From positions 1 through 37,795 of the forward strand of contig NZ_JH417566.1 in NCBI RefSeq assembly GCF_000239275.1: 37,795 bases of DNA, read 5' to 3'. Below, piece by piece: positions 11,204 to 37,453 of this stretch. Source of the DNA: Megasphaera geminata F0357. GTDB taxonomy: Bacteria; Bacillota; Negativicutes; Veillonellales; Megasphaeraceae. Both the position numbers and the translations under genes were made by a program. Numbering within the stretch: the first letter of the stretch is position 1; the number at the start of each line of letters is the position of its first letter. The notes under the pieces were generated by a model. That model made no database searches. It saw only the letters and a list, made by a program, of their open reading frames with translations, and was not told the DNA's origin.

Positions 11204-11277
11204 GCGGAAGACTCTATAAGGCCGATGCCGCTTTTACAGGTATCATCTTAATTAACGAATAACTGTGCGGGAAGTAA

Positions 11278-11327
11278 GCCGGCGAAATCGGCGCGTTATC
11301 TGTATGGCCGGCGCATTTCATTTTTTT
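11278..11327 (+). terminator. Possible terminator or attenuator before the sulfite reductase
   Basis: GCCGGC at 11278-11283 can pair with GCCGGC at 11307-11312, followed by TTTCATTTTTTTG. It sits after the TlpA gene and about 20 bases ahead of the reductase ATG. Confidence 0.3.
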
Positions 11328-11348
11328 GCTCACGAGGTAGGAGGATAT

Positions 11349-12891
11349 ATGGATACCAAAAAGTGGACGGAACATTTTAAACGGGATTTGCCTGTTTTTT
11401 ATGAAGCGACGCGGAAATTTTATCGTAAAGAGCTGGAACCCGGTAAATATAAGGGGATTTCGGGAGGATTCGGCTGTTATGGCGAACGCGGTGCGGAATC
11501 CACCATGTTACGGCTCCGCTTTGCAGGCGGTATTATCGAACAAAGGGATCTGCAGTCGCTTATTACATTGATTGAAAAACACAAGGTGGAAATGGTGCAC
11601 TATACGACCTGTCAATCGTTGCAGCTTCATCATTTGACGGAAACACAGGTCCTTTCGCTTACTGCCGATCCTTTATGAACAAGGTATTCTGACCCGTGGT
11701 GCCGGATCTGATTTTCCGCGCAATATTACGGCGCCGGCTCTTCGCGGTATCGATCCGAATGAGTATTTCGACATTACCGCTCTCGTCGATGCCGTAACCG
11801 ATTATCTTCTCGGGTTTATCGGCGTCGTTAAGTTACCGCGTAAATTTAAAGTTTCCTTTAATAATGCACCTGTTGATGAGCCGCATTCGACAATTCGCGA
11901 TCTCGGCTTTGTAGGCCGCCCCGACGGGTTGTTCGATGTCTATGCCGCAGGCGGTCTAGGTCCTAATCCGAAACTTGGCGTGAAGCTGGCGGAAGGTATT
12001 GCCCGAGAAAAGATTCTCTACTATGTAAAGGCCATGTATATGACTTTTTCCAAGTACGGTAATTATACTAACCGCAGTCGGGCCCGTACGCGTTACTTTC
12101 AACAGGTACCGGGAACGGAAGAGTTTAAGGTTCTCTTTAATAACGGCCTTATCGAGGCTTTTAAAGAGAATCTGGAGCTTCATGTAGAAGAAAGAGAAAT
12201 TACCAAGACGGGCATACCGCGTGAGGTGGATAATTTACGTATTAAACCGCAAAAACAAAGGGGATTATATTATGTTACATATCATCCCGTCGGCGGTACG
12301 CCATCTATGGAGAATTTTCTTGCTCTTGCCAAAGCTGTCGTGGCCATTGATGGGGCTCAGTTCCGTTTAGGTGCCGAAGAAACGGCATATATTACGAACC
12401 TTACCGCTGATGAAGCGGAGCGCATTGCCGCGTTGACTGAAAGTGAAACGGCGCATACTGCCTTTGAAAAATCCGTTTCCTGTGTCGGCAGTACAGTCTG
12501 TCAGGTAGGCTTACGTGATTCGCACGGTCTGTTAAAAAATATTCTGGAAGCCGCCAAGCCCTATAATTTTGCCGACGGCGTTTTACCTCGTCTTTATATT
12601 TCCGGCTGTCCTAATTCGTGCGGGACTCATGAGACGGGTGTTCTCGGTTTCCAAGGCGCGGCGAAAAAAGTCGGTGATACGACGGTGCCGGCATTCGCCG
12701 TGCATATTGGCGGTTCCGATACCCTTTACCGTGAAGTTTTGGGACCGAAAGTTACCGTTATTACGTCAGAAAATATTCCTGAATTTATCGTTGAGCTGGG
12801 AAAAACAGTAGAAAACGCAAAAACCACGTTTAATGAATGGTACAGCGCTCATTCGAAAGAACTCTACGCTCTGGCGGAAAAATACGTATAA
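11349..12891 (+). pseudogene. Siroheme sulfite/nitrite reductase family protein, split by a +1 frameshift
   Basis: The ATG at 11349 follows GAGG and begins MDTKKWTEHFKRDL. The N-terminal ferredoxin-like half (GGFGCYGERG, MLRLRFAGGIIEQRDL) runs to about 11665. There the frame passes into a premature TGA; the neighbouring frame continues as PILYEQGILTRGAGSDFPRN and on to the end. The span is 1543 bases, one more than a multiple of three, so a single extra base near CGCTTACTGCCG explains it. The C-terminal half holds the 4Fe-4S/siroheme ligands: Cys-X5-Cys in SCVGSTVCQVG and Cys-X3-Cys in SGCPNSCGTHETG. The intact protein would be about 513 residues, usual for this family, and would reduce sulfite or nitrite with six electrons. 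The redox cluster just upstream could be its electron source, but that is a guess. Confidence 0.87.
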
Positions 12892-14279: not shown

Positions 14280-15254
14280 TTATAAAAGGTGAGAGCGAAG
14301 TTCCGCGTCGCTTTTAGTGGAAATCCAGGCAGGCGGGATATCAAAGACGGTGAACGCGCCTTTGGCGCCGTGTGAAGCCAGTCGATGCAAGCCGCGGGCA
14401 TATGCCGTGAGGACGGAGCCTGTAAATTCAGGATTGCTGTCCAGTTTCAAACTGTATTCGATAACGTGGCTCGTACCTTTTGTACTTTCTCCGCTGCGCA
14501 TTACGAATCCGCCGTGGGGAATACCCTTATGATCGCGGTCCAGTTCTTTCTGAGAGATGAAATGAACTGCTGTTTCATAACCGACGAAGTAGTTTTCCAT
14601 TGTTTTGATTTCTTCTTCGATTTTAGCCTTGTCCGCATTTTCGGCAGCGACGACATAGCAGTCGCGGAGATGTGCTTCCTGAGCGGTAACTTCCGGTGTT
14701 TCACCGCTGCGGATGGCATTTAAGTAGGCCTCTTTAGGTACTGTGTATTGGCGGGCGTCGAGAACTCCTTCAATACGGCGGATCGCGTCGGAGTGCCCCT
14801 GGCTTACGCCGCGGCCCCAAAAGGTATACGTTTTGCCTTGCGGCAGGATAGATTCCGCAAAGACACGCTGTAAGGAGAACATGCCCGGATCCCAGCCGCA
14901 GGAGATGAGAGCTGCTGTGCCGCCTTCTTTAGCCGCCTTGTCGACAGTAGTAAAGTGTTCCGTAATACGCGGATGCGTATCGAAGCTGTCGATGCAGACG
15001 AAATCTCTGGCTACTGCAGGCGTCTGAACGATTAAATCCGTTGCCGATCCGCCGCATAATATCATGACATCGATTTTTCCCTTAAAATCTTTCATTTGAT
15101 TCATTGTATATACAGGAATGCCGCTTACTGTCTGTAAATCATTGCGACGGGAGAATACAGCGACCAATTCCATGTCCGGCTGTAACTGAACGGATGCTTC
15201 CGCGCCACGGCCCAGGTTACCGTAGCCGACGATGCCGATGCGAATTTTACTCAT
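14280..15254 (-). CDS. ddh: meso-Diaminopimelate D-dehydrogenase
   Basis: Ddh converts tetrahydrodipicolinate, ammonia and NADPH directly to meso-2,6-diaminopimelate, bypassing succinylated or acetylated intermediates. The 324-residue protein starts with the Rossmann fingerprint IRIGIVGYGNLGRGAE and contains CGGSATDL, CIDSFDTHPRI, ISCGWDPGMFSLQR, FWGRGVSQGHSDAIRR and GIPHGGFVMRSG, all typical of Ddh. GGAGGC precedes the ATG. It lies 85 bases downstream of dapL on the same strand, so one cell carries two routes from the same precursor. The pairing is notable because most bacteria rely on one. Confidence 0.95.
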   Translation of the reverse strand: MSKIRIGIVGYGNLGRGAEASVQLQPDMELVAVFSRRNDLQTVSGIPVYTMNQMKDFKGKIDVMILCGGSATDLIVQTPAVARDFVCIDSFDTHPRITEHFTTVDKAAKEGGTAALISCGWDPGMFSLQRVFAESILPQGKTYTFWGRGVSQGHSDAIRRIEGVLDARQYTVPKEAYLNAIRSGETPEVTAQEAHLRDCYVVAAENADKAKIEEEIKTMENYFVGYETAVHFISQKELDRDHKGIPHGGFVMRSGESTKGTSHVIEYSLKLDSNPEFTGSVLTAYARGLHRLASHGAKGAFTVFDIPPAWISTKSDAELRSHLL

Positions 15255-15338
15255 TGAGATGCCTCCTAATAAAATATAATGACTCTTTCAGCTGTTCGGA
15301 TTATATTGTACCATACAGCGTATCCTTTTTATATGGAC

Positions 15339-16574
15339 TCAGAACGTTAAATTCTTTATTCTCTCGACGGCTTCTGTCGTGTCCGCACGGGAACCGAAGG
15401 CGGTGAGCCGCATATACCCTTCGCCGTGCGGGCCGAAACCGCTGCCCGGGGTCGTAACGACAGCTGCACGTTCCAAAAGAAGATCAAAAAAATCTCCGCT
15501 TTTCATGCCTTGCGGTGTCTGTACCCAGGCGTAGGGAGAATTGGCAGCGCCGTAAACGGTATAGCCCGCTTCCGTAAGACCGTTGCGAATGGTATGCGCG
15601 TTTTCCATATAATAGTCTATATCGGCACGGCACTGTGCCCGGCCGGCCGCTGAGTAATACGCTTCGGCGGCTCGCTGAATGATATACGGCGTGCCGTTGA
15701 AGAACGTGCATTGACGGCGGTTCCACAGGGAATTCAAGGTAACAGGTTCTCCCGCTTTGGTATAGGCTTTACAGGTCCGCGGCACGATAATATAGGAACA
15801 ACGCATGCCCGTGAAGCCGGCACATTTGGAATATGAACGAAGTTCAATGGCAACTTCGTTTGCTCCGTCGATTTCATATATGCTGTGCGGTATATCGGCC
15901 TCCGTTATGTATGTTTCATAGGCCGAGTCGTAGATGAGGACCACTTTATTTTCCCTTGCATATGTTACCCAGGCGGACAATTCCTCGTATGACATCGCCG
16001 TACCGGTGGGATTGCTCGGATTGCAAAGGTAAACGATATCAACTTTTTCTGCAGGCGGCTGTGCTTTAAAACCGTTTTCCGGTGTGCACGGCAAGTAGAC
16101 CACGCCGTCATAACGTCCTGTTTCAGCATGATACCTGCCTGTGTGACCGGTAATGACATTGGAATCCAGATAAACCGGATAAACCGGATCGGCTACGGCG
16201 AATTTCAAGTCCGCGCCGAAAAGATCTTGAATGCAGGCGACATCCGTTTTTGCACCGTCGCCGATAAATACCTCGTCCAGCTCAAGTGATACACCGCGTG
16301 TTTCGTAATCGCCCTTGATGATAGCGGCTCTTAAAAACTCATAGCCTTGTTCAGGCCCGTAACCGCGGAACGTTGCCGCACTGCCCATTTCAGCGGTTGC
16401 CTTGTGCATGGCGTCTATAATGGCCGGGGCAAGGGGACGTGTCACGTCGCCGATGCCGAGTCGAATAATACGACGTTCGGGGTGACGTTGTTCGTAAGCG
16501 GTTACCTTTTTAGCGATCGTTGCAAAAAGATAAGTACCCGGAAGTTTTGCATAATTTTCATTAACATGAGCCAT
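15339..16574 (-). CDS. dapL: LL-diaminopimelate aminotransferase
   Basis: DapL transfers an amino group from glutamate to tetrahydrodipicolinate, giving LL-diaminopimelate for lysine and peptidoglycan. The 411-residue, PLP-dependent, fold-I enzyme shows NENYAKLPGTYLFATIAKKV at the N-terminus, RLGIGDVTRPLAP, FRGYGPEQGYEFLR, VYLCNPSNPTGTA, and the PLP lysine in SYSKCAGFTGMRCSY. These are hallmarks of the DapL family, as is the length (about 410). AAGGAGG precedes the ATG. A possible promoter on the minus strand (TTTCAA and TAAAAT, near 16615-16645) lies upstream. I looked for a lysine riboswitch in the 230-base leader and could not recognise one. Confidence 0.95.
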   Translation of the reverse strand: MAHVNENYAKLPGTYLFATIAKKVTAYEQRHPERRIIRLGIGDVTRPLAPAIIDAMHKATAEMGSAATFRGYGPEQGYEFLRAAIIKGDYETRGVSLELDEVFIGDGAKTDVACIQDLFGADLKFAVADPVYPVYLDSNVITGHTGRYHAETGRYDGVVYLPCTPENGFKAQPPAEKVDIVYLCNPSNPTGTAMSYEELSAWVTYARENKVVLIYDSAYETYITEADIPHSIYEIDGANEVAIELRSYSKCAGFTGMRCSYIIVPRTCKAYTKAGEPVTLNSLWNRRQCTFFNGTPYIIQRAAEAYYSAAGRAQCRADIDYYMENAHTIRNGLTEAGYTVYGAANSPYAWVQTPQGMKSGDFFDLLLERAAVVTTPGSGFGPHGEGYMRLTAFGSRADTTEAVERIKNLTF

Positions 16575-16781
16575 GGAACGGGCCTCCTTAGAGTTTCCTT
16601 ATAAAATAATTACTTATTTTACTACAGCCGATTTCTGTTGAAAAGACGAGAAGGAAAAAACGTGAAAATTAGAGCCCCTTTTCTATTAATAAAGGAATTT
16701 CATAGGATACAATATCGCTCTATTGCCATATAAAGAGGAAGCAGACGGTAACAGGGAAGTTATGCGTCTCCGGTATTCCTA

Positions 16782-16790
16782 TGATATAAT
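16782..16790 (+). promoter_or_regulatory. Extended -10 element
   Basis: TGATATAAT (TG at 16782-16783, TATAAT at 16785-16790) lies 15 bases before the ATG at 16806. A start at about 16797 would leave a leader of only some nine bases. Confidence 0.45.
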
Positions 16791-16805
16791 AAACGGCAGA
16801 ATCAA

Positions 16806-17087
16806 ATGTCCCGCAGGAGAAAAAACAACCGAGGTGCGCAGCTGTTAAAGATATTTTTACAAAAGGTAAAGGAACGATATCACTTGTCCCGTTGCGGTGA
16901 GCCGGTTCGTATGGAGGCGCCGTGTCTCTATGTTGATAAAGGGCGTAAATTTGCCGTTTGGAATATGCCTGATAAGACTTTTGAATTTGCGGCTGAACGT
17001 GTGCGGGAAGAAGCGGGACAACGGTCCTTTGGCGATTATGATTGTCGTGCTACCCGCTCATGGAGCGAATTCGTGAAAAATTATTGA
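16806..17087 (+). CDS. Unrecognised 93-residue protein
   Basis: I do not recognise this gene. The product begins with a basic stretch (SRRRKNNRGAQ), then a helix (LLKIFLQKVKERYHL), then a small beta-like middle (APCLYVDKGRKFAVWNMP) and a charged end with two more Cys or aromatic residues. There is no signal peptide or clear membrane segment. The ATG has no Shine-Dalgarno and sits very close to an extended -10 element, so it may be read from a very short leader. Codon use resembles the neighbours. It stands alone between dapL (divergent) and the giant gene. A short frame just after it (ATG 17089, 82 codons) is doubtful. Confidence 0.5.
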   Translation: MSRRRKNNRGAQLLKIFLQKVKERYHLSRCGEPVRMEAPCLYVDKGRKFAVWNMPDKTFEFAAERVREEAGQRSFGDYDCRATRSWSEFVKNY

Positions 17088-17505
17088 AATGGAGAGGGCC
17101 GTTGACGAGCGGGTTTGTGAAATTATTAAATACGGTGCGTACAGCGTGATAAAAGAAAAACGTAAGCTTGTTCTTTGGAAGCGTGTTATATTGAGTAGCG
17201 CATTGACGAAAGTGAACAGAATAATTTGGTTCTTATATTATTTAGGTGTGCCTATAAGTCCGGTGAAGGGTATAATTTACGCTGTAATTGAGAACGGTCA
17301 AGCCGGCTCTGAGCGCAGCGGTATTGTTACCGTTTAGGTTTTACTTTTATTCATTTTAAAACGGAGTTCTTGCTGAATCATCATATAGGCCGAGAGCGGT
17401 GGGAAGAAGGCGGTAACCCTTTCACGGGCGGTGTATAATGAATATATAATATATACTTTGCAATAAAGACCGTTTGAGAAAGCCTTTCGTCAGAGGAGAA
17501 AAGAG
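17088..17505. other. Region before the giant gene with no convincing gene
   Basis: About 420 bases. An 82-codon frame (17089-17337) lacks a ribosome site and resembles no family I know. A 29-codon frame (ATG at 17064) with a basic amphipathic look overlaps it; neither is convincing. Near 17291-17330 an imperfect AACGGT/ACCGTT hairpin followed by T-rich sequence could be a terminator. TATAAT-like sequences around 17437-17455 probably belong to the promoter of the gene at 17506. Confidence 0.4.
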
Positions 17506-20500
17506 ATGCATACACATATCGCTTCGGATTTGCGTAAGATTATAGAAGAAGGGTTGCGGCAGAAACGTTTTTTAACGTTTGCCGGACTGTCACAGCGGGA
17601 AGCGGCTCAGCTTGTACCGGCACAGAAGCTCGATGAGATTGCGACGGCCATAGCTGCAACTACAGGAGCGGACGGACGTTTTGACATTTTGCCCGTGACG
17701 GATTTATTGAAGGAAACTGTGGAAGCACTGAACAATGAACCGCCTTGCGGTTGGCTTCGCTATTGTTATTATTATATTTTGGCACAGATTTATCCGGAAA
17801 ATGTGGCTTACTGGACGGATGATCATATTGAAGAAGTACTGAAGGATGATCATATTTACAAAACGGGACGGGCTTTGGTGCTGCAGATTCTGCGTTCTCT
17901 TTTTCGCTATGAAAAGCTTTATTTGCCCTTTGCACCGACCAGAGAAATGCACTTTCTCAGCGCAGAGGAAATTATTCGAAACGATTTTAATCGCGAATAT
18001 TTACGTCTTCGTGAAATCAGTACAGACTTATATATTTATGAATTTATGCGCATCGGCTGTACAATTACCCCTTTCGACACACTCGGACATGTTTGCGGCG
18101 TTCATTATGTATCCACCTTTACGGCACGGCAGCTCTATCGTGCCGGTGTCCCCGTCGATATCGGTCTCGTTTCCGGTGCCGCCGCCACTCATGATATCGG
18201 CAAATACGGTTCTAAAAAAAGTGAAGAGCGGCGTGTTCCATATTTGCATTATTTCTATACGGATCTTTGCTGCCGCCGTATGGGTATTCCCGCAATCGGA
18301 CATATTGCGGCGAACCATTCCGTGTGGGACCTGGAACTGGAAAATCTGTCTGTCGAAGCGCTTCTGCTTATTTATGCGGACTTCCGCGTTAAGAGTGAGC
18401 GCGTGGACGGTAAAGAAATTGTTCGTTTTTATACTCTTGCCCAGGCATTTAACGTTATTTTGGACAAGCTTGATAATGTGGACGAAAAGAAAAAGCATCG
18501 TTATCAGAAAGTCTATGCCAAGCTGGCGGACTTTGAGTCTTATATGAAAGAGATGGGCGTAGAAACGGATTTGCCCGCCGATTTTGCGGACGAACCGGCC
18601 GTGCGTACGAAAAAGAAACGCCCTGAAGCGGTTTTGCTTGAAGGCGAAGAAGTAGTTGATGCTCTGTCATATGCGGCAATTGACCATAATATCGAGCTCA
18701 TGAATATTTTCCAGAAGGAGAATAAATTTTCCCGCCTCGTTGAAGCGGCACGAAGTGAACGCAGTTGGAAAAACGTGCGTAATTATATCGGCACATTTGA
18801 AGAATATTCAACGTATATGACAGAGCAGCAAAAGCTGATGACCCTGCAGTACCTTTATGAAGTGCTCACCTATAAAGACGTGGATATCCGCATGCAGGCG
18901 GCACGCCTTATGGGCGTTATTGTCGCTAAGTTTACGGAACATTACTCCAAAGAACTGCCTGAAGGAGTTACACTGCCGGGGAAAAAAGTGACCGGCGTTT
19001 CTCTCTTTGCGCACTATCTTTCTATCATTATCAAACCCGGCTGGCGCTTTACGTACCAGCACAGGCTCTGGATATCTTATTGCCTGGGGCCTTTTGTGCA
19101 GGCGGCGCTGCAGAATTGCGACGACGGCGAGCGGACGGCGTATATCGCATTCCTGCAGACCTACTATGAGCGCACAAATTATCAAAGTGAAATATGTATT
19201 GTTCTGCTTACGGCACTGATGGAAATTGAAGCGGTCCATGTAGAACCGTCATTTCTCGAAAGGGCGCGTACATTTACGGCGGCGGCCTTGCACAGTGATG
19301 ACCGTCATGTTTGCGTGGCGGCGTTACGCTGCAAGGAACATCTTTTTGACGACTATGCTGAAGAAAGGTATTTCGCGGATTTACTGGATCTGTTGGAACT
19401 TCCTCATGATGAAGAAGCATTTGCCGAACGGGAGGGTCTTCTCTTTTTAGATAACTTAAAAATGGGAACGCATTGGGTTGTGAAAGAGGCCAATATAGAA
19501 ATCCTCCTTCATTATCTCCAGGCATTGCCTGACAGAAGCAGCGTGATGCATTTGGGAACGCATTTGACCAACGTTCTGAAAATGAGTGAGAATCCTTTCG
19601 TACAGCGTGCTGCCGGCGCGGCCCTGTTGCGTGTATCTCATTATATGACCTATACACAGCGCAATGAAATTGCCGTGGAATTGTTTAACGGTTTGGAATT
19701 GGGGGACCTTCGTATTTCTCAATACGTGCCCGAATATTTAGGCCGTATTATTCTTCAGCTGGAACCGCGGGAATTGGATGAATGTATTAATACGCTGGAA
19801 ACGCAAATTCTCGCTGCCTCCACACAGGTTGCGTCATCCATGATTCATACGGTAGGCGTCATGCTCGGCAATTTTCGCGAGTTCTCCGAACGATTTCCGG
19901 AAGATGAGGGGAATAATCTGCGAAAGCGTCGTCTCCTTTACGTCATGATCAAGGCTTATGCGCATTATGACAAGGAACTCAGCCGTGACGCATTCCGGCA
20001 TATGGGGCGGTTTATTTTTGCCAATCCCGATTTAACATTGGCGGAAGTGGATTTTCTTTTTATTCATTCATATAAGAAAATTCTTATTCTCCTGGCTGAA
20101 GAACGGGAAGAGCCGCTTGATTTTTACAGTAATGCGGCCGTACTGAACCATATTTACCGCTATATAGGCATCCATCAATTCATTACGGGCCCCTTCCCGT
20201 TTGAGAAGAAACGCAAAGTTTGCTTTTATCCGGGCACGTTTGACCCGTTCAGTCTCGGGCATAAAGCCGTCGCCGTACGCATTCGTGATCTCGGGTTTGA
20301 CGTATATTTGGCTCTTGATGAATTTTCATGGTCAAAACATACGCAGCCGCGGTTGATGCGGCGTAAGATCATGAACATGTCGACAGCCGATAAAGAACAC
20401 ATTTATCCGTTTCCTGACGATATTCCCATCAATATGGCGAATCCTGCCGATTTAAAACGTTTAAAAGCGATATTTGCAGATCGGGAGCTTTATATTGCCG

Positions 20501-22363
20501 TAGGCACGGACGTCATCAAAAATGCGTCCGCCTATAAGAACGAACCGACGGAACATTCCATTCATACGATTAATCACATCGCTTTTGAGCGGGAAACACG
20601 GGAGAATCACTATTTGAACAGCGATGCTCCCTACCCTATCCAAGGAGAAGTGGTGCCGCTTTTACTTGATAAATTCTATGAGGATATCAGCTCTACGCGT
20701 ATCCGTGAAAATATTGATTTAAACCGTGATATATCAAACCTCATTGATGCAGTGGCACAAAGCTTTATCTACAAAAATAACCTTTACCTTCGTGAACCGG
20801 CGTATAAGCATGTTTTTGAAGCAAAAGATATGAGTGTCGGCACGTATAAGGCGAGAGGGCATGAGAGCTTATGGCCTATTCAGGAAAAACTGGTTACCTT
20901 GGGATATAAAACGGAAAATGTGGAAGAATACATAGAGAAAGGGAATGTCCGTACCCTTTACATAGACAGTGCCGACAAGAATAAAGAAATTATTGCCTAC
21001 GCGGCGGCGCATCATGTAGGAACCCGTGATTTACACGGCGAGTTCGGCGATGCTGCGGTTGTCTCGCACATTCGTACCGTGTCTGAAGGCAGCGTTGCTT
21101 CTATAGGCTTTATTTATGCCGATACGTCCTCGGCCATTGCCAATATTTGGGAAATTATTATTACTGAACTCATGTCGGAGCTCATTGCCCGTGATTACGC
21201 CTATGCCGTATATCACCCTGTGGATAAGGGGGGATATGATGAGGCCGTTTTAAGAGCGCTCCAGGATCAGGGGTTTCGTGATATTGCGCCGGATCGTGCC
21301 GGGGCGCCTGTTTACGCAGCCAGCTTAAAGGCCCCGGTTGTGCTTTTCCGGGATGTGGAAACTGTTTTGAAGAATCCGTTTAATAAAAACGAGTGTATTT
21401 CGGATGCTCTTGATAAGGCCCATAAACGACTTCTTTCGGCAATGCGCCATATTTATCCGGGTAAGCTTATTCTTTCTTTCAATACGAGTGTCGTGCACAA
21501 TAAGATCATCAAGAAGGCCGTACAATTGAACGGCGTCTCGATTACTCGCGATGAACAACGACGTTATGGCCCGTACATGTCCGTCCCCTTCGGTAAGACT
21601 CTGAGCGATGTGCTCGTGCCCAATACAGTGACGAAGGCGCTGCATATAGAAAAATATTTCAACCGTTCCGTGGAAGGGTTTACGATGGCGGAATCATGCC
21701 ACTATTCGTCTGTCGATAATCAGGTAAGGACCATTAAATCCTTCAATAGACCCGTTATTCTTATAGATGACCTGCTGCACAAAGGATACCGCATGCAAAT
21801 GCTGGCGCCCCACTTGGAAAAAAACGGTATTGACGTCAGGGCCGTTTTAACCGGCGTCATGACCGGTCGTGCCATGGATATGATGACGGAAAAAAGGATA
21901 AAGACGGAGAGCGCATACTTTTTGCCGACCTTGGAAGTATGGCTCAATGAACGGGACTGCTATCCCTTCCTGGGAGGGGACAGCATAGTGAGCGTTACCT
22001 GATTACGACGGTCAGGATTCCAATCCTTTTATCAATCTTGTCTTACCGTACGTGAAGCCGGGCTTTGTCGGCGGCGGTGATGATGATGCGGCGTATACAT
22101 ATTCCATGATTTGTTTGCAGAATGCCCGCGACATTATGGAAGCATTGCAGCAGGAATATCAACGTATATTTGAAAAGAGACTGACTTTGAAACGGCTTGG
22201 CGAAGTTGTGACACCCTTGCGTATTCCCGATATGGATGTAGGCGTCATATTCGATGAAAACATGAATCCGTCACGCTTTATTGAAAATGATATAGAACGG
22301 CTGATCCGGCTGCGTTGGAAGCGCAAACAATCGCAGAAACGGAGCGGGAAGGAGGCGGAATAA
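17506..22363 (+). pseudogene. Giant multidomain HD / NadD-like nucleotidyltransferase / PRTase-like protein, one +1 frameshift near the end
   Basis: GAGGAG precedes the ATG. The main frame is open to 22002 (1498 residues); the tail continues in the next frame from about 22000 (PDYDGQDSNPFINLVLPYVKPGF) to 22363. The span is one base over a codon multiple, and removing one base at ATAGTGAGCG gives a 1618-residue protein. Domains: an HD hydrolase with HD at 229-230 (THDIGKYG) and a downstream Asp near 292; a long helical, HEAT-like middle (about 390-890); a nucleotidyltransferase with GTFDPFSLGH at 910-919 and SSTRIR at 1062-1067, as in NadD/CoaD; a possible GNAT-like stretch (about 1130-1310); and a PRPP-loop-like VILIDDLLHKGYRM around Asp1421-Asp1422. 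I recall long proteins loosely annotated as cytidyltransferase in Negativicutes, but know no function. Nucleotide or NAD-precursor processing is inferred. Confidence 0.8.
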
Positions 22364-23329
22364 ATGTTTATTCACGATCTGCCCGGTGAAATCGGCGTGG
22401 CTGAAGCGGTGCCTTTGGAACCTTCGCCGCTGCCGCCGCGGAAAGTGAGGCTTCACATTGTTGCCCTCGGCGATGTGGGGGCGACTATGCTTATAGGACT
22501 GCGCCTTCTCGGCGGTGATGTCATTACAAGCTGCGGCATATATGATCTTAACCGGAAAAATTTGGAACGTTTGGAAATGGAAATCAATCAAATTCAGTAC
22601 CCTGACGGTGAAGGGGACCTGCCGGCTGTCGAAATCATAACGGAAGACAGGTTGTTTGATTGTGATGTATTCGTATTCTGCGCTACAAAAGGCATTCCTC
22701 CCGTCGGTTCCGACTGTGATGTACGCATGGCTCAGTTTGCGGCCAATCGCGGTTTAGCCGTGTATTTTGCGGAGATGGCGGCACGAGCATGTTTTAAAGG
22801 ATTGGTCTGTATCGTCTCCGATCCTGTGGATCCTCTTTGCAAGGCTTTTTTACAGGTATCCGGCCTGCGAGCTTCTCAGATTCAGGGATTCGGTCTTGGC
22901 GTGATGAACGGACGAGCCAGATATTACGCCTGTAAAGATGGTCGCTTTGCCTCATACTTGACGGAAGGCCGTGTTTACGGCCCGCACGGCGAAGACCTGG
23001 TCGTTGCCAACAGTCTGGCGCAATATGATGATTCCTTGTCGCGGGATTTAACGACATTGGTCGTGCGGGCTAATATTGCTGTCCGTAATTTGGGCTATAA
23101 ACCTTATATTGCGCCGGCTTTTTCGTCTGCCGCCATTTCTGTTATTCTTGCTTTGCGGGGCAGCTGGCACTATGGTTCGATCTGGCTCGGCAGCCGCTCG
23201 GAAGGGGCTTTCCTCGGCGTGCGCAATCGATTTTATGACGGACGTGTGGAATATGAAGATGTGCCCGTGCCTCCGGCGTTATATAAACGAATTAAAAAGG
23301 CCTATTTGAACCTCTGCAAGCTTTCGTGA
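22364..23329 (+). CDS. Lactate/malate dehydrogenase-like NAD-binding protein
   Basis: Begins one base after the preceding stop, behind AAGGAGG. The 321-residue protein keeps the outline of the LDH/MDH family: a Rossmann loop (IVALGDVGATMLIG) ending in an acidic IYDLNRKN, VFVFCATKGIPPVG in place of the substrate loop, VSDPVDPLC (as in VTNPVD), SGLRASQIQGFGLGVMNGRARY, and VYGPHGED carrying the family's catalytic His. About 35 residues precede the Rossmann fold. The Asp that normally pairs with the His is not obvious, so the substrate is probably not plain lactate or malate. Its tight coupling to the giant gene suggests a joint pathway. LDH-like fold: fairly sure; reaction: unknown. Confidence 0.75.
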   Translation: MFIHDLPGEIGVAEAVPLEPSPLPPRKVRLHIVALGDVGATMLIGLRLLGGDVITSCGIYDLNRKNLERLEMEINQIQYPDGEGDLPAVEIITEDRLFDCDVFVFCATKGIPPVGSDCDVRMAQFAANRGLAVYFAEMAARACFKGLVCIVSDPVDPLCKAFLQVSGLRASQIQGFGLGVMNGRARYYACKDGRFASYLTEGRVYGPHGEDLVVANSLAQYDDSLSRDLTTLVVRANIAVRNLGYKPYIAPAFSSAAISVILALRGSWHYGSIWLGSRSEGAFLGVRNRFYDGRVEYEDVPVPPALYKRIKKAYLNLCKLS

Positions 23330-23344
23330 AGGAGGCCGTTGCGC

Positions 23345-24439
23345 ATGGTCTATCTTATTCGTATAACATGTGAGGGCTCCGCGTCGGCAGCACGCCTTGA
23401 CGGAGTACTGAAGCGCGTATTACCCCCGGGAGAGTATGTAGAAATAACCGGTCCGGAAGGGTTGTTGACAATTAAAGATAAGCTGCGCGGACAGGTCTGC
23501 ATCTTTACGGTTTCCCTGGGACCGGGTGGTATGAATGAGGAATACAGGCGGCTTATTGCGGCTCTTTATACGTCTCCGCAGTTACTGGAAGGTGTTTGCG
23601 GCGGTATTGTTATTGACGGACCGGACGAGCTTTTTACCAAAAAGATCGGCAGAGAGCTCCTGTTTATCGCTAATCGGGCGGGGTGTTTGTTTCCCGGCAA
23701 ACCTCTTGTCGAGGCGACGGGATCGCTTCGCAATTTTAATGTACAGGCCCGCCTGTTGCAATCAAGCCCTGCCGAGGCCTATAAAACAGCGGTAGAACAA
23801 CTTGTTGGAAAGGCCGTCGCCTTGACACGGAAGCCCCGGGAGAAATTTGATAAACAACACCTGCTTGTTCTGCATGCGAGCAGTCGCGCCACGTCTAATA
23901 CATTGCTGCTCTGGAAAATAGTCAGATCTCATTTGTCGCGGAGAACAGAAATAGAAGAAATTTCTTTGCGTAACGGCGAACTGGTCGATTGCCGGGGCTG
24001 CAGCTATGAAACGTGTTTGCATTTCGGCGAAAAAGGGGACTGTTTTTACGGCGGCCTGATTGTGGACGAGGTATATCCGGCTGTTAAGAAATGCCATGCC
24101 TTATTATTGATTTGCCCCAATTATAATGATGCCGTCGGCGCCAATATGACGGCTTTCTTCAATCGCCTGACTGCTCTTTTTCGGACGGACTTCAAAGAAT
24201 TTGCGTCAAAACGGGTTTATGCGCTTGTCGTGTCCGGATACAGCGGCGGAGATATTGTTGCCGAGCAGATTGCCGATACCATGAGCTGTAATAAAAATTT
24301 TATTTTACCGCCTCATTTCGCTCTTGTGGAGACGGCAAACGAGCCGCGGAGTATTCTCGCCTGCCCGGGGATAAAGGAGCGGGCGGCAGCCATGGCTGTG
24401 AGAATAGAGGGTGATTTTTCAGAGCCTGCATGCAATTAA
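23345..24439 (+). CDS. Flavodoxin-like / FMN reductase family protein with a Cys cluster
   Basis: The 364-residue protein has an unassigned N-terminal half (about 1-165, with ITCEGSASAARLDGVLK and SLGPGGMNEEYRRLIAAL) and a C-terminal NADPH-dependent FMN reductase-like domain: HLLVLHASSRATSNTLLL is the FMN phosphate loop and LLLICPNYNDAVGANM the next. Between them, CRGCSYETCLHFGEKGDC holds four cysteines spaced 3, 5 and 9 residues apart, like iron-sulfur flavoproteins. TTG 23339 and ATG 23345 share the frame; AAGGAGG ends at 23335, so the ATG fits better. Last gene of the giant-protein unit; probably its redox component. Confidence 0.78.
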   Translation: MVYLIRITCEGSASAARLDGVLKRVLPPGEYVEITGPEGLLTIKDKLRGQVCIFTVSLGPGGMNEEYRRLIAALYTSPQLLEGVCGGIVIDGPDELFTKKIGRELLFIANRAGCLFPGKPLVEATGSLRNFNVQARLLQSSPAEAYKTAVEQLVGKAVALTRKPREKFDKQHLLVLHASSRATSNTLLLWKIVRSHLSRRTEIEEISLRNGELVDCRGCSYETCLHFGEKGDCFYGGLIVDEVYPAVKKCHALLLICPNYNDAVGANMTAFFNRLTALFRTDFKEFASKRVYALVVSGYSGGDIVAEQIADTMSCNKNFILPPHFALVETANEPRSILACPGIKERAAAMAVRIEGDFSEPACN

Positions 24440-35212: not shown

Positions 35213-35995
35213 TTATTCTTTAGGTTCCGTACCGAACCATTTCTTGTATAATTTTGCGTATGTTCCGTCCGCTTTGAGTTCCTGCAGCGCTTTATTGATG
35301 TCTTTCGTTAATTCCGGCTTATCCTTGCTTGTAGCCATTGCTACGCCGCGGGAAACAATAGGTTCACCGACCAGTTTCAGTTTATCTTTACCGCCCTGTT
35401 GCAGGTAGTAAAGAGCGACAGCCTGATCAATGGCCACGGCATCACACGTCCCGGCTTCCAGTTCCATCCAGCCCTGTGTGTTTGTATCAACTTCTTTTAC
35501 GGTCGCGCAGTTTTCTTTAGCAAGGTCTGCAGGTTTTGAACCTATCTGAGCCGCAACTGTTTTTCCGTTCAAGTCATCAAAGCCGTTGATTGTCGAGTTG
35601 TCATTTTTTACGACTACGACATAACCGCCTTTGAAGTAAACATCCGTGAAGCTGACCTGTTCCCTGCGTTCCGGGGTGGCGTCCATACCGGCGGCGATAA
35701 GGTCGATCTGACCGCTCTGGAGAGCGGGAATAAGAGCGTCGAAGCCAAGATTTTTGACTTCCATCTTATAACCGAGTTTATCGCAGACGGCTTGGGCCAA
35801 ATCAATGTCGAAGCCCACGTCTTTTTCGTTTTCTGTAAATTCGAAGGGCGGGAATGTCGGCTCCGTGCCGACGATTAATGTTTTTTGAGCATTCGCCGCG
35901 TTGTCGGATTCAGATGTGTTGTTCCCGCAGCCCGCTATAAAAACGGAAATTACTGCAACGGCTGCAGCTAAAAGGGAGATATACTTTCTTTTCAT
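35213..35995 (-). CDS. Amino-acid ABC transporter substrate-binding lipoprotein (copy 1)
   Basis: A 260-residue polar-amino-acid-binding protein (family 3, GlnH/HisJ-like). Lipobox FIAGC follows a signal peptide; then TLIVGTEPTFPPFEF, VGFDIDLAQAVCDKLG, LGFDALIPALQSGQIDLIAAGMD split by a helix, GKTVAAQIG and the C-terminal YKKWFG. It should be tethered to the outer face of the inner membrane. AGGAGG precedes the ATG. It is very similar to the second copy upstream (36651-37418), including a 44-base identical stretch. No permease or ATPase gene is in the window, so it may work with a system elsewhere. Confidence 0.93.
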   Translation of the reverse strand: MKRKYISLLAAAVAVISVFIAGCGNNTSESDNAANAQKTLIVGTEPTFPPFEFTENEKDVGFDIDLAQAVCDKLGYKMEVKNLGFDALIPALQSGQIDLIAAGMDATPERREQVSFTDVYFKGGYVVVVKNDNSTINGFDDLNGKTVAAQIGSKPADLAKENCATVKEVDTNTQGWMELEAGTCDAVAIDQAVALYYLQQGGKDKLKLVGEPIVSRGVAMATSKDKPELTKDINKALQELKADGTYAKLYKKWFGTEPKE

Positions 35996-36650: not shown

Positions 36651-37418
36651 CTAAATTTTCGGTTCCGTACCGAACCATTTCTTGTATAGTTCAGCGTAAG
36701 TGCCGTCGGATTTTAACTCGGCCATAGCGTTGTTAACCTTTTCCAGCAATTGAGGATCGTCCTTGCTGACTGCTAGTGACATACCGGTTGAGATAATCGG
36801 TTCACCTACCATTTTCAGCTCTTTGCTGCCGCCCTGCTGCAAGTAATACATGGCAACGGCATTGTCAATGACAACGGCATCACACGTCCCGGCTTCCAGT
36901 TCCATCCAGCCCTGTGTATTTTGATCGAACTGCTTTACCACGGCTCCGTGCTCCTGGGCATAGTCAACTCCTTTGGTGCCGACTTGTGCGCCGACTGTTT
37001 TCCCGGCTAAATCGTCGAAACCGTTGATAGTCGTGTTATCTTTTTTAACGACGACCGTATAACCGCCTTTAAAATAAATATCCGTGAAGTTAACCTGTTC
37101 CTTTCGTTCCGGCGTAGCATCCATGCCCGAAGCGATCATGTCGATCTGACCGCTTTGCAGGGCAGGAATAAGAGCATCGAAACCAAGGCTCTTGATTTCC
37201 GCTTTTTTACCCATCATTCCGGACAACGCTTTGGAATAATCAATGTCAAAACCGACATAGGTATCGCCTTCCGTAAATTCAAAAGGAGGAAAGGTCGGTT
37301 CCATGCCGATAACTAACGTATCCTTAGCGGTCTTTTGCTCCTGTTGGGAACCGCAGCCGGTAAGGATAGCGGCTGCCGTCATGAAGACGGCGGCAAATAA
37401 GAGTATCTTTTTGTTCAT
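36651..37418 (-). CDS. Amino-acid ABC transporter substrate-binding lipoprotein (copy 2)
   Basis: A paralogue of the protein at 35213: lipobox ILTGC, TLVIGMEPTFPPFEF, VGFDIDYSKALSGMMG, SLGFDALIPALQSGQ, NTQGWMELEAGTCDAV and YKKWFGTEP. ATG 37418 (NKKILLF next) is preceded by AGGAG at ten bases; TTG 37424 shares the frame and has AGGAG at four. A good promoter lies at 37454-37482. The pairing of two near-identical sensors suggests duplication with divergence in the ligand pocket (for example EVKNLGF against EIKSLGF). It leads an operon with the HAD gene and copy 1. Confidence 0.93.
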   Translation of the reverse strand: MNKKILLFAAVFMTAAAILTGCGSQQEQKTAKDTLVIGMEPTFPPFEFTEGDTYVGFDIDYSKALSGMMGKKAEIKSLGFDALIPALQSGQIDMIASGMDATPERKEQVNFTDIYFKGGYTVVVKKDNTTINGFDDLAGKTVGAQVGTKGVDYAQEHGAVVKQFDQNTQGWMELEAGTCDAVVIDNAVAMYYLQQGGSKELKMVGEPIISTGMSLAVSKDDPQLLEKVNNAMAELKSDGTYAELYKKWFGTEPKI

Positions 37419-37453
37419 ATCCAAACATCTCCTGACATAATTTATTTTTTATA

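Follow-up and report, generated by a model that had tools for sequence, protein, structure and literature searches.

The RelA/SpoT and GlnD proteins combine an HD domain, a nucleotidyltransferase and further domains, the nucleotidyltransferase folds of Rel and GlnD being different from that of NadD. A NadD–YqeK fusion with proofreading has also been described, in a minimal mycoplasma genome (PMC9426524). Here we describe a locus from Megasphaera geminata F0357 (assembly GCF_000239275.1, contig NZ_JH417566.1, positions 1–37,795; this whole stretch of 37,795 nucleotides is referred to below as the window) in which a giant gene encodes HD, helical, NadD-like, GNAT and phosphoribosyltransferase (PRTase)-like domains in one protein. 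It is followed by genes for a protein with the fold of lactate and malate dehydrogenases (LDH/MDH) and for a flavoprotein. The three genes are constant neighbours in related genomes, and we tentatively regard them as one functional unit, with the giant as an enzyme of several activities on one scaffold, devoted to a ribonucleotide or dinucleotide that would have its own redox users.

The giant was called as an open reading frame (ORF) of 1498 amino acids up to a break in the frame (17506..22002, forward strand). It is taken to be a real gene because the longest open run in 200 base-shuffled versions of the region was 228 codons (mean 108), and because in ten relatives from the genus (60–80% identity) the frame is an unbroken 1614–1650 amino acids; the same two results rule out a chance ORF or a fusion of neighbouring genes. 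The motifs reported in the original prediction, which was made from the letters and translations alone, lie in the long frame where it placed them: HD at residues 229–230, GTFDPFSLGH at 910–919, SSTRIR at 1062–1067 and, near the residue 1421 that it gave, the Asp-Asp loop VILIDDLLHKGYRM at 1417–1430.

Past the break, a C-terminal extension is recognised in another frame by the family profile (22007..22360, forward strand). The match covers 22007–22324 (E 3.3e-40), a second profile search gave 21977–22342, and the next ORF ends directly 5' of the ATG of the LDH-like gene at 22364. The full chain is ~1,615 residues long. The break was left as it is and the pieces of the giant were searched separately, with no sequence mended. 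It is probably a sequence or assembly error, since the same genome (a metagenome-assembled genome of 1.8 Mb, 88% complete) has its ordinary nadD divided between two frames as well. A nitrite/sulfite-reductase-like gene recognised by eye at 11265–12891 (forward strand) is likewise in pieces, with an ORF of 137 amino acids, a gap and an ORF of 320 amino acids, a further sign of frame errors in this genome.

The giant is present in 10 of the 14 other genomes of the genus, and the LDH-like and flavoprotein genes lie beside it in all ten, the flavoprotein match in locus L024 being a fragment of 165 amino acids. Among named genomes of bacteria and archaea, covering 84,980 species, a scan turned up 388 loci with a relative, of which the best 80 were kept; 78 of these yielded usable ORFs, 75 of them over 1500 amino acids. 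Among those 78, the sequence extends 2.7 kb or more beyond the giant in 65 loci, and 62 of these contain both partners. No more than 424 bases separate the end of the giant from the start of the LDH-like gene in 61 of the 62, and the gap is 25 bases or less in 43 (overlaps counted, ORF starts set mechanically). All three genes are found, in order, in Acetoanaerobium noterae at 33% identity. The genes thus remain neighbours in related genomes, a point on which the original prediction had asked to be checked.

That prediction had framed the question within the Negativicutes. The genes are indeed linked there, but the system is not confined to the class: going by the record labels of the best 80 of the 388 loci, most belong to Clostridia, which predominate, or to unplaced Bacillota, several to Negativicutes and one to Spirochaetes. 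The giant is full length in 8 of 150 genomes of a class sample (source genome included), two more giving weak matches to the NadD domain alone. In a phylum sample of 398 genomes (E<=0.001 for the C-terminal domain, E<=1e-30 each for the LDH-like protein and the flavoprotein) the C-terminal domain occurs in eight, again counting the source genome. It is part of a long frame each time, with no stand-alone version at E<=0.001 in the 398, and the giant and both partners are found in the same eight genomes. A quick FastTree phylogeny of 51 members, many of unusual composition, places Eubacterium pyruvativorans and two Acidaminococcaceae within a well-supported Megasphaera-type set, which suggests transfer of the giant between lineages.

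The HD phosphohydrolase domain (17938..18585, forward strand; about residues 145–360) holds H195, H200, H229-D230, H248, N270-H271 and D292. Among 75 full-length members, with identity down to 37%, H200 is kept in 74 and all the others in 75, so that the metal-ligand pattern of the superfamily, H...HD...D, is present throughout as H195, H229, D230 and D292. Pfam HD (PF01966) matches 30 of 53 members at E<=0.1 (best 5e-5) and the HD part of the NCBIfam DVU_1551-family model matches 47 (best 3.2e-7). Neither the window protein (17.7 bits) nor the homologue from Colibacter (14.8) reaches the PF01966 gathering cut-off of 22, and a PDB profile search with the HD part gave weak matches (best E 0.092). 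By hhalign the domain scored 24–55% with RNase Y, Dgt and two other HD groups and 17% with another HD group. Against six YqeK sequences it scored 0.9% (E 0.061), within the range of three controls; so low a score may still go with YqeK kinship, since Rel/SpoT, also an HD family, scored 0.3%. The HD domain is followed by a HEAT/ARM-type helical solenoid (18586..20202, forward strand; about residues 361–899), identified from structure searches and an AlphaFold2 model of the Colibacter homologue (predicted local distance difference test, pLDDT, 88.8; predicted template modelling score, pTM, 0.87). Pfam HEAT is found in 33 of the 53 members. HEAT/ARM proteins took up the VIA and Foldseek match lists for the N-terminal half, which therefore say little about the HD fold.

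The NadD-like adenylyltransferase domain (20203..20802, forward strand; about residues 900–1099) contains GTFDPFSLGH and SSTRIR, and the structure match lists for the C-terminal half and a family scan agree on a NadD/CoaD-type fold with its motifs. In the numbering of the Colibacter homologue, G911, F913, D914, H920, S1063, S1064, I1067 and R1068 are kept in 75 of 75 members. With catalytic-type residues so conserved down to 37% identity, the NadD and HD sites are both under selection. The domain nevertheless scores far under the equivalog cut-offs (35.9 vs 150 bits for TIGR00482, 33 vs 112.45 for PRK00071), and no giant of the genus exceeds the NadD cut-off. A separate NadD above the family cut-off is encoded in all 15 genomes of the genus, including four without the giant, and the giant is therefore not the sole nicotinic acid mononucleotide adenylyltransferase in the genus; a role as substitute for an absent NadD is ruled out.

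Next comes a weakly conserved GNAT-fold domain (20815..21357, forward strand; about residues 1104–1284), with 7 of 181 positions conserved at 95%. The fold is present in the structure match lists, where the GNAT structures include protein N-acetyltransferases. The loop Q/RxxGxG/A, which we take to be the acetyl-CoA loop of GNAT proteins, is not apparent by eye in the family consensus.

The PRTase-like domain (21361..21999, forward strand; about residues 1286–1498, with the Asp-Asp loop at 21754–21795) is rather well conserved, at 37 of 215 positions at the 95% level. Pfam Pribosyltran (PF00156) matches 21 of 53 members at E<=0.1 (best 2.7e-4), the window protein falling short of the gathering cut-off (11.3 vs 26.3 bits). 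At the loop that would bind phosphoribosyl pyrophosphate (PRPP), hhalign gave 33–47% with 3 of 12 clusters from a PRTase search, the other nine being at 0–8.4% (for two of these, L157 and L196, the wrong ORF was probably taken) and seven controls at 2.3% or less. A PDB profile search was weak (best E 0.16), and the VIA and Foldseek lists for the C-terminal half were filled by NadD and GNAT proteins, with no PRTase structure among the matches listed. Across 75 members the two Asp residues of the loop are kept in 73 and 74, Gly in 69 and the Arg two residues further on in 74; the position just ahead of the Gly carries Lys in 37 members and Ser in 27. What we take to be the canonical loop, Asp-Asp followed by Thr/Ser-Gly-x-Thr/Ser, lacks its usual second part here. 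Taken together, the profile comparisons point to PRTase homology with moderate strength. The HD domain, helical middle, NadD-type domain, possible GNAT-like stretch and PRTase-type loop that had been read from the letters are thus all found, the middle as a solenoid and the stretch as a GNAT fold.

The first partner (22364..23329, forward strand; 321 amino acids) has, by sequence profile against PDB LDH/MDH entries, an NAD-binding LDH/MDH-type fold (best E 9.7e-12) with an altered active site. R121, R184 and H208 are kept in 68 of 68 proteins and D61 in 66. From one profile alignment we assume that H208, R184 and R121 correspond to His195, Arg171 and Arg109 of LDH. By the same presumed correspondence, the position of Asp168 holds Met, and that of Asn138 holds Asp, in all 68, so the catalytic His-Asp pair of LDH/MDH is incomplete. 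The dinucleotide loop reads AxGDVG. The Met and Asp replacements look as if the nicotinamide or substrate end of the protein had been altered. More distant members (403–443 amino acids; L071, L074, L076, L079, L081, L083, L084, L088, L090-L097, L102, L103, L105 and L191) have ~90 extra N-terminal residues. The second partner (23339..24439, forward strand; 366 amino acids) is a flavoprotein of the flavin mononucleotide (FMN) reductase type, with a Pfam FMN_red domain (5.7e-16; 58.9 vs a cut-off of 24 bits). Its cysteines C218, C221, C226 and C235 are present in 65 of 65 aligned proteins and may hold an [Fe–S] cluster. A PDB profile search with the flavoprotein gave no match at 0.01.

How might these parts work together? 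In the explanation that we favour, the solenoid would keep the catalytic domains together, and the PRTase-like domain would attach a base to phosphoribose or release it. The NadD-like domain would couple the resulting mononucleotide to AMP, or another nucleoside monophosphate, drawn from a nucleoside triphosphate (NTP), giving a dinucleotide. The HD domain would hydrolyse a phosphoester in that nucleotide, or in product that is faulty or in excess, and the LDH-fold protein and Cys-cluster flavoprotein would reduce, oxidise or use the nucleotide. We infer every chemical step, the order of the steps and the identity of base and product from domains and residues. A more daring version, which we consider unlikely, is an anaerobe redox cofactor system: starting from a base, PRPP and an NTP, the giant would build a dinucleotide that is an analogue of NAD, the HD domain would remove wrong or surplus product, and the cofactor would serve a private LDH-fold dehydrogenase with a remodelled nicotinamide end and would be recharged by a private Fe–S flavoprotein.

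Several observations weigh against the favoured scheme. The GNAT domain has no part in it, the PRTase homology is moderate with an atypical phosphate loop, and the neighbouring genes point to no pathway. An Rfam scan found no match in the window, and none in 16500–17600 at E<=1, so that no riboswitch was seen 5' of the giant. Both partner genes are missing from the vicinity of the giant in L075, L086 and L099; in L096, a C. thermobutyricum metagenome-assembled genome, they lie together at a distance of 5.6 kb; the flavoprotein gene of L066 is on the opposite strand; and in genome G475 giant and partners are on separate contigs, the partners near a contig end. As for the original prediction of a single enzyme for making, checking and recycling a nucleotide or NAD-like cofactor, its domains and two constant redox partners stand. 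Such a role for NAD or a cofactor like it is hypothetical, given the separate NadD, the sub-cut-off NadD scores, the altered PRPP loop and the weak conservation of the GNAT domain.

The main rival is a signalling enzyme akin to RelA/SpoT or GlnD, in which the NadD-like domain would make, and the N-terminal HD domain destroy, a nucleotide messenger, while the GNAT, PRTase and HEAT parts would sense acyl-CoA, PRPP and partner proteins and the redox pair would report the redox state. It owes this rank to the way in which HD and nucleotidyltransferase, the one ahead of the other in a single chain, could oppose each other, and to the poorly conserved, sensor-like GNAT domain; the altered PRPP loop and the two-component regulators among the neighbours in L092 and L065 also fit. 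The good conservation of the PRTase-like domain does not, two redox proteins would be unusual as the constant partners of a signalling system, and no further gene is constant, all of which leaves signalling doubtful. An enzyme of NAD synthesis or salvage with proofreading, in effect an elaborate NadD–YqeK fusion, would account for the NadD fold and motifs and has a parallel in the mycoplasma fusion (PMC9426524). Every genome of the genus has its NadD besides, the HD domain resembles YqeK at control level (a control that is not clean, given the Rel/SpoT score) and the solenoid separates HD from NadD, and we judge this quite improbable.

HEAT/ARM solenoids usually bind proteins or nucleic acids, and with protein N-acetyltransferases among the GNAT structures listed one could imagine a machine that modifies protein or RNA, with the macromolecule bound by the solenoid and a nucleotide or an acyl group put on by the transferases and taken off again by the HD domain. 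No target gene is constant, however, the GNAT domain is poorly conserved and the redox partners would be left without explanation; we regard such a machine as very unlikely. Patchy occurrence in the class and phylum samples and the signs of transfer in the quick tree might instead suggest a phage-defence or mobile system. At E<=0.1 none of the three proteins is matched by PADLOC, and neither the giant nor the LDH-like protein by PHROG, where the flavoprotein has two weak matches (0.012 and 0.063). Phage records gave no match at 1e-5, and among plasmid records there is a single one at 1e-20, the 2.6-Mb replicon of Acetoanaerobium noterae (NZ_CP154629.1, L191). The neighbours in the window, mostly judged by eye, look like ordinary metabolic genes. 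We consider a defence or mobile role highly improbable. PLSDB lists that replicon among plasmids, with only 4 annotated features; it may be a mislabelled chromosome.

No fourth gene is constant, the commonest further neighbour cluster occurring in 12 of 80 loci. Divergent to the operon in the window (14280–16574, reverse strand) lie genes for diaminopimelate dehydrogenase (418 bits) and LL-diaminopimelate aminotransferase (553 bits), and in L045, an uncultured Clostridiales near Mogibacterium, DapH and aminotransferase genes adjoin the operon; because of this there may be a link to diaminopimelate synthesis. Response regulators adjoin it in several lineages: in L092 (15665–17788, with a sensor kinase) and L065 (14937–15800), both scanned, and, by eye from the first residues, in L103 and L032. 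Near the pair in L096 (7918–15662) are a gene with weak PurF/GlmS/glutamate-synthase matches and, on the opposite strand, an ammonium-transporter-like gene seen by eye. Further off in the window (35213–35995 and 36651–37424, reverse strand), a HAD-type phosphatase gene stands between those for two closely similar ABC substrate-binding proteins of the amino-acid type, again by eye. Rfam elements in 14 of the 80 related loci comprise two tRNAs, two tmRNAs, one T-box, one SAM riboswitch and three c-di-GMP-I riboswitches; none is directly 5' of the giant, the nearest on the same strand being the L069 T-box, 3.6 kb upstream.

The original prediction knew of no described system with this set, and we found none. 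No match in the family libraries scanned covers the full giant, and a literature search on domain pairings, the genus, tellurite-type PRTases and YqeK, with subscription papers and preprints mostly outside its scope, returned no description; it did list a jumbo-phage review (PMC7824862), for a pairing of the domains, and three papers on genomes or metabolism. As far as these searches reach the assembled system is new, its component superfamilies being known. New nucleotide cofactors and messengers are rarely found; here one chain and two partner genes make up a whole candidate pathway, which is passed on as a unit across Bacillota. Carriers with strain names, among them Megasphaera cerevisiae DSM 20462, Colibacter massiliensis and Acetoanaerobium noterae DSL2, open it to direct metabolomic and in vitro testing.

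Compared with L-lactate and malate dehydrogenases, the first partner shares the Rossmann NAD fold and the Arg109, Arg171 and His195 equivalents and differs in Asp168->Met, Asn138->Asp, GxGxxG->AxGDVG and, in many distant members, the N-terminal addition. The flavoprotein shares the FMN_red domain and four invariant cysteines with iron–sulfur flavoproteins and NADPH-dependent FMN reductases; its spacing is CX2CX4CX8C, whereas that of Isf is, we believe, tighter, and its ~170 N-terminal residues have no family match. With type I PRTases the giant shares an Asp-Asp loop in register by profile, the rest of the domain having diverged; the loop is mostly DDLLH[KS]GxR rather than DDxxxTGxT, a motif that we take to be Hpt-/Xpt-like. 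Unlike RelA/SpoT and GlnD, it has a nucleotidyltransferase of NadD fold (CTP_transf_like is the sole nucleotidyltransferase domain that Pfam lists in members, in a general scan not directed at Rel) and redox partner genes. Unlike NadD itself, the NadD-like part is one domain of a much longer chain, below the equivalog cut-offs and beside a true NadD; most members have [ST]-L-[SG]-H where NadD, we assume, usually has HxGH or TxGH. In the NadD–YqeK fusion NadD presumably comes first and is directly joined to HD, which is not so in the giant. That fusion (PMC9426524) likewise has NadD-type and HD domains in a single chain and is the nearest precedent for joining the two activities; the giant differs in having HD first, a ~540-residue solenoid between, GNAT and PRTase-like domains, two redox partners and no YqeK likeness detected by profile.

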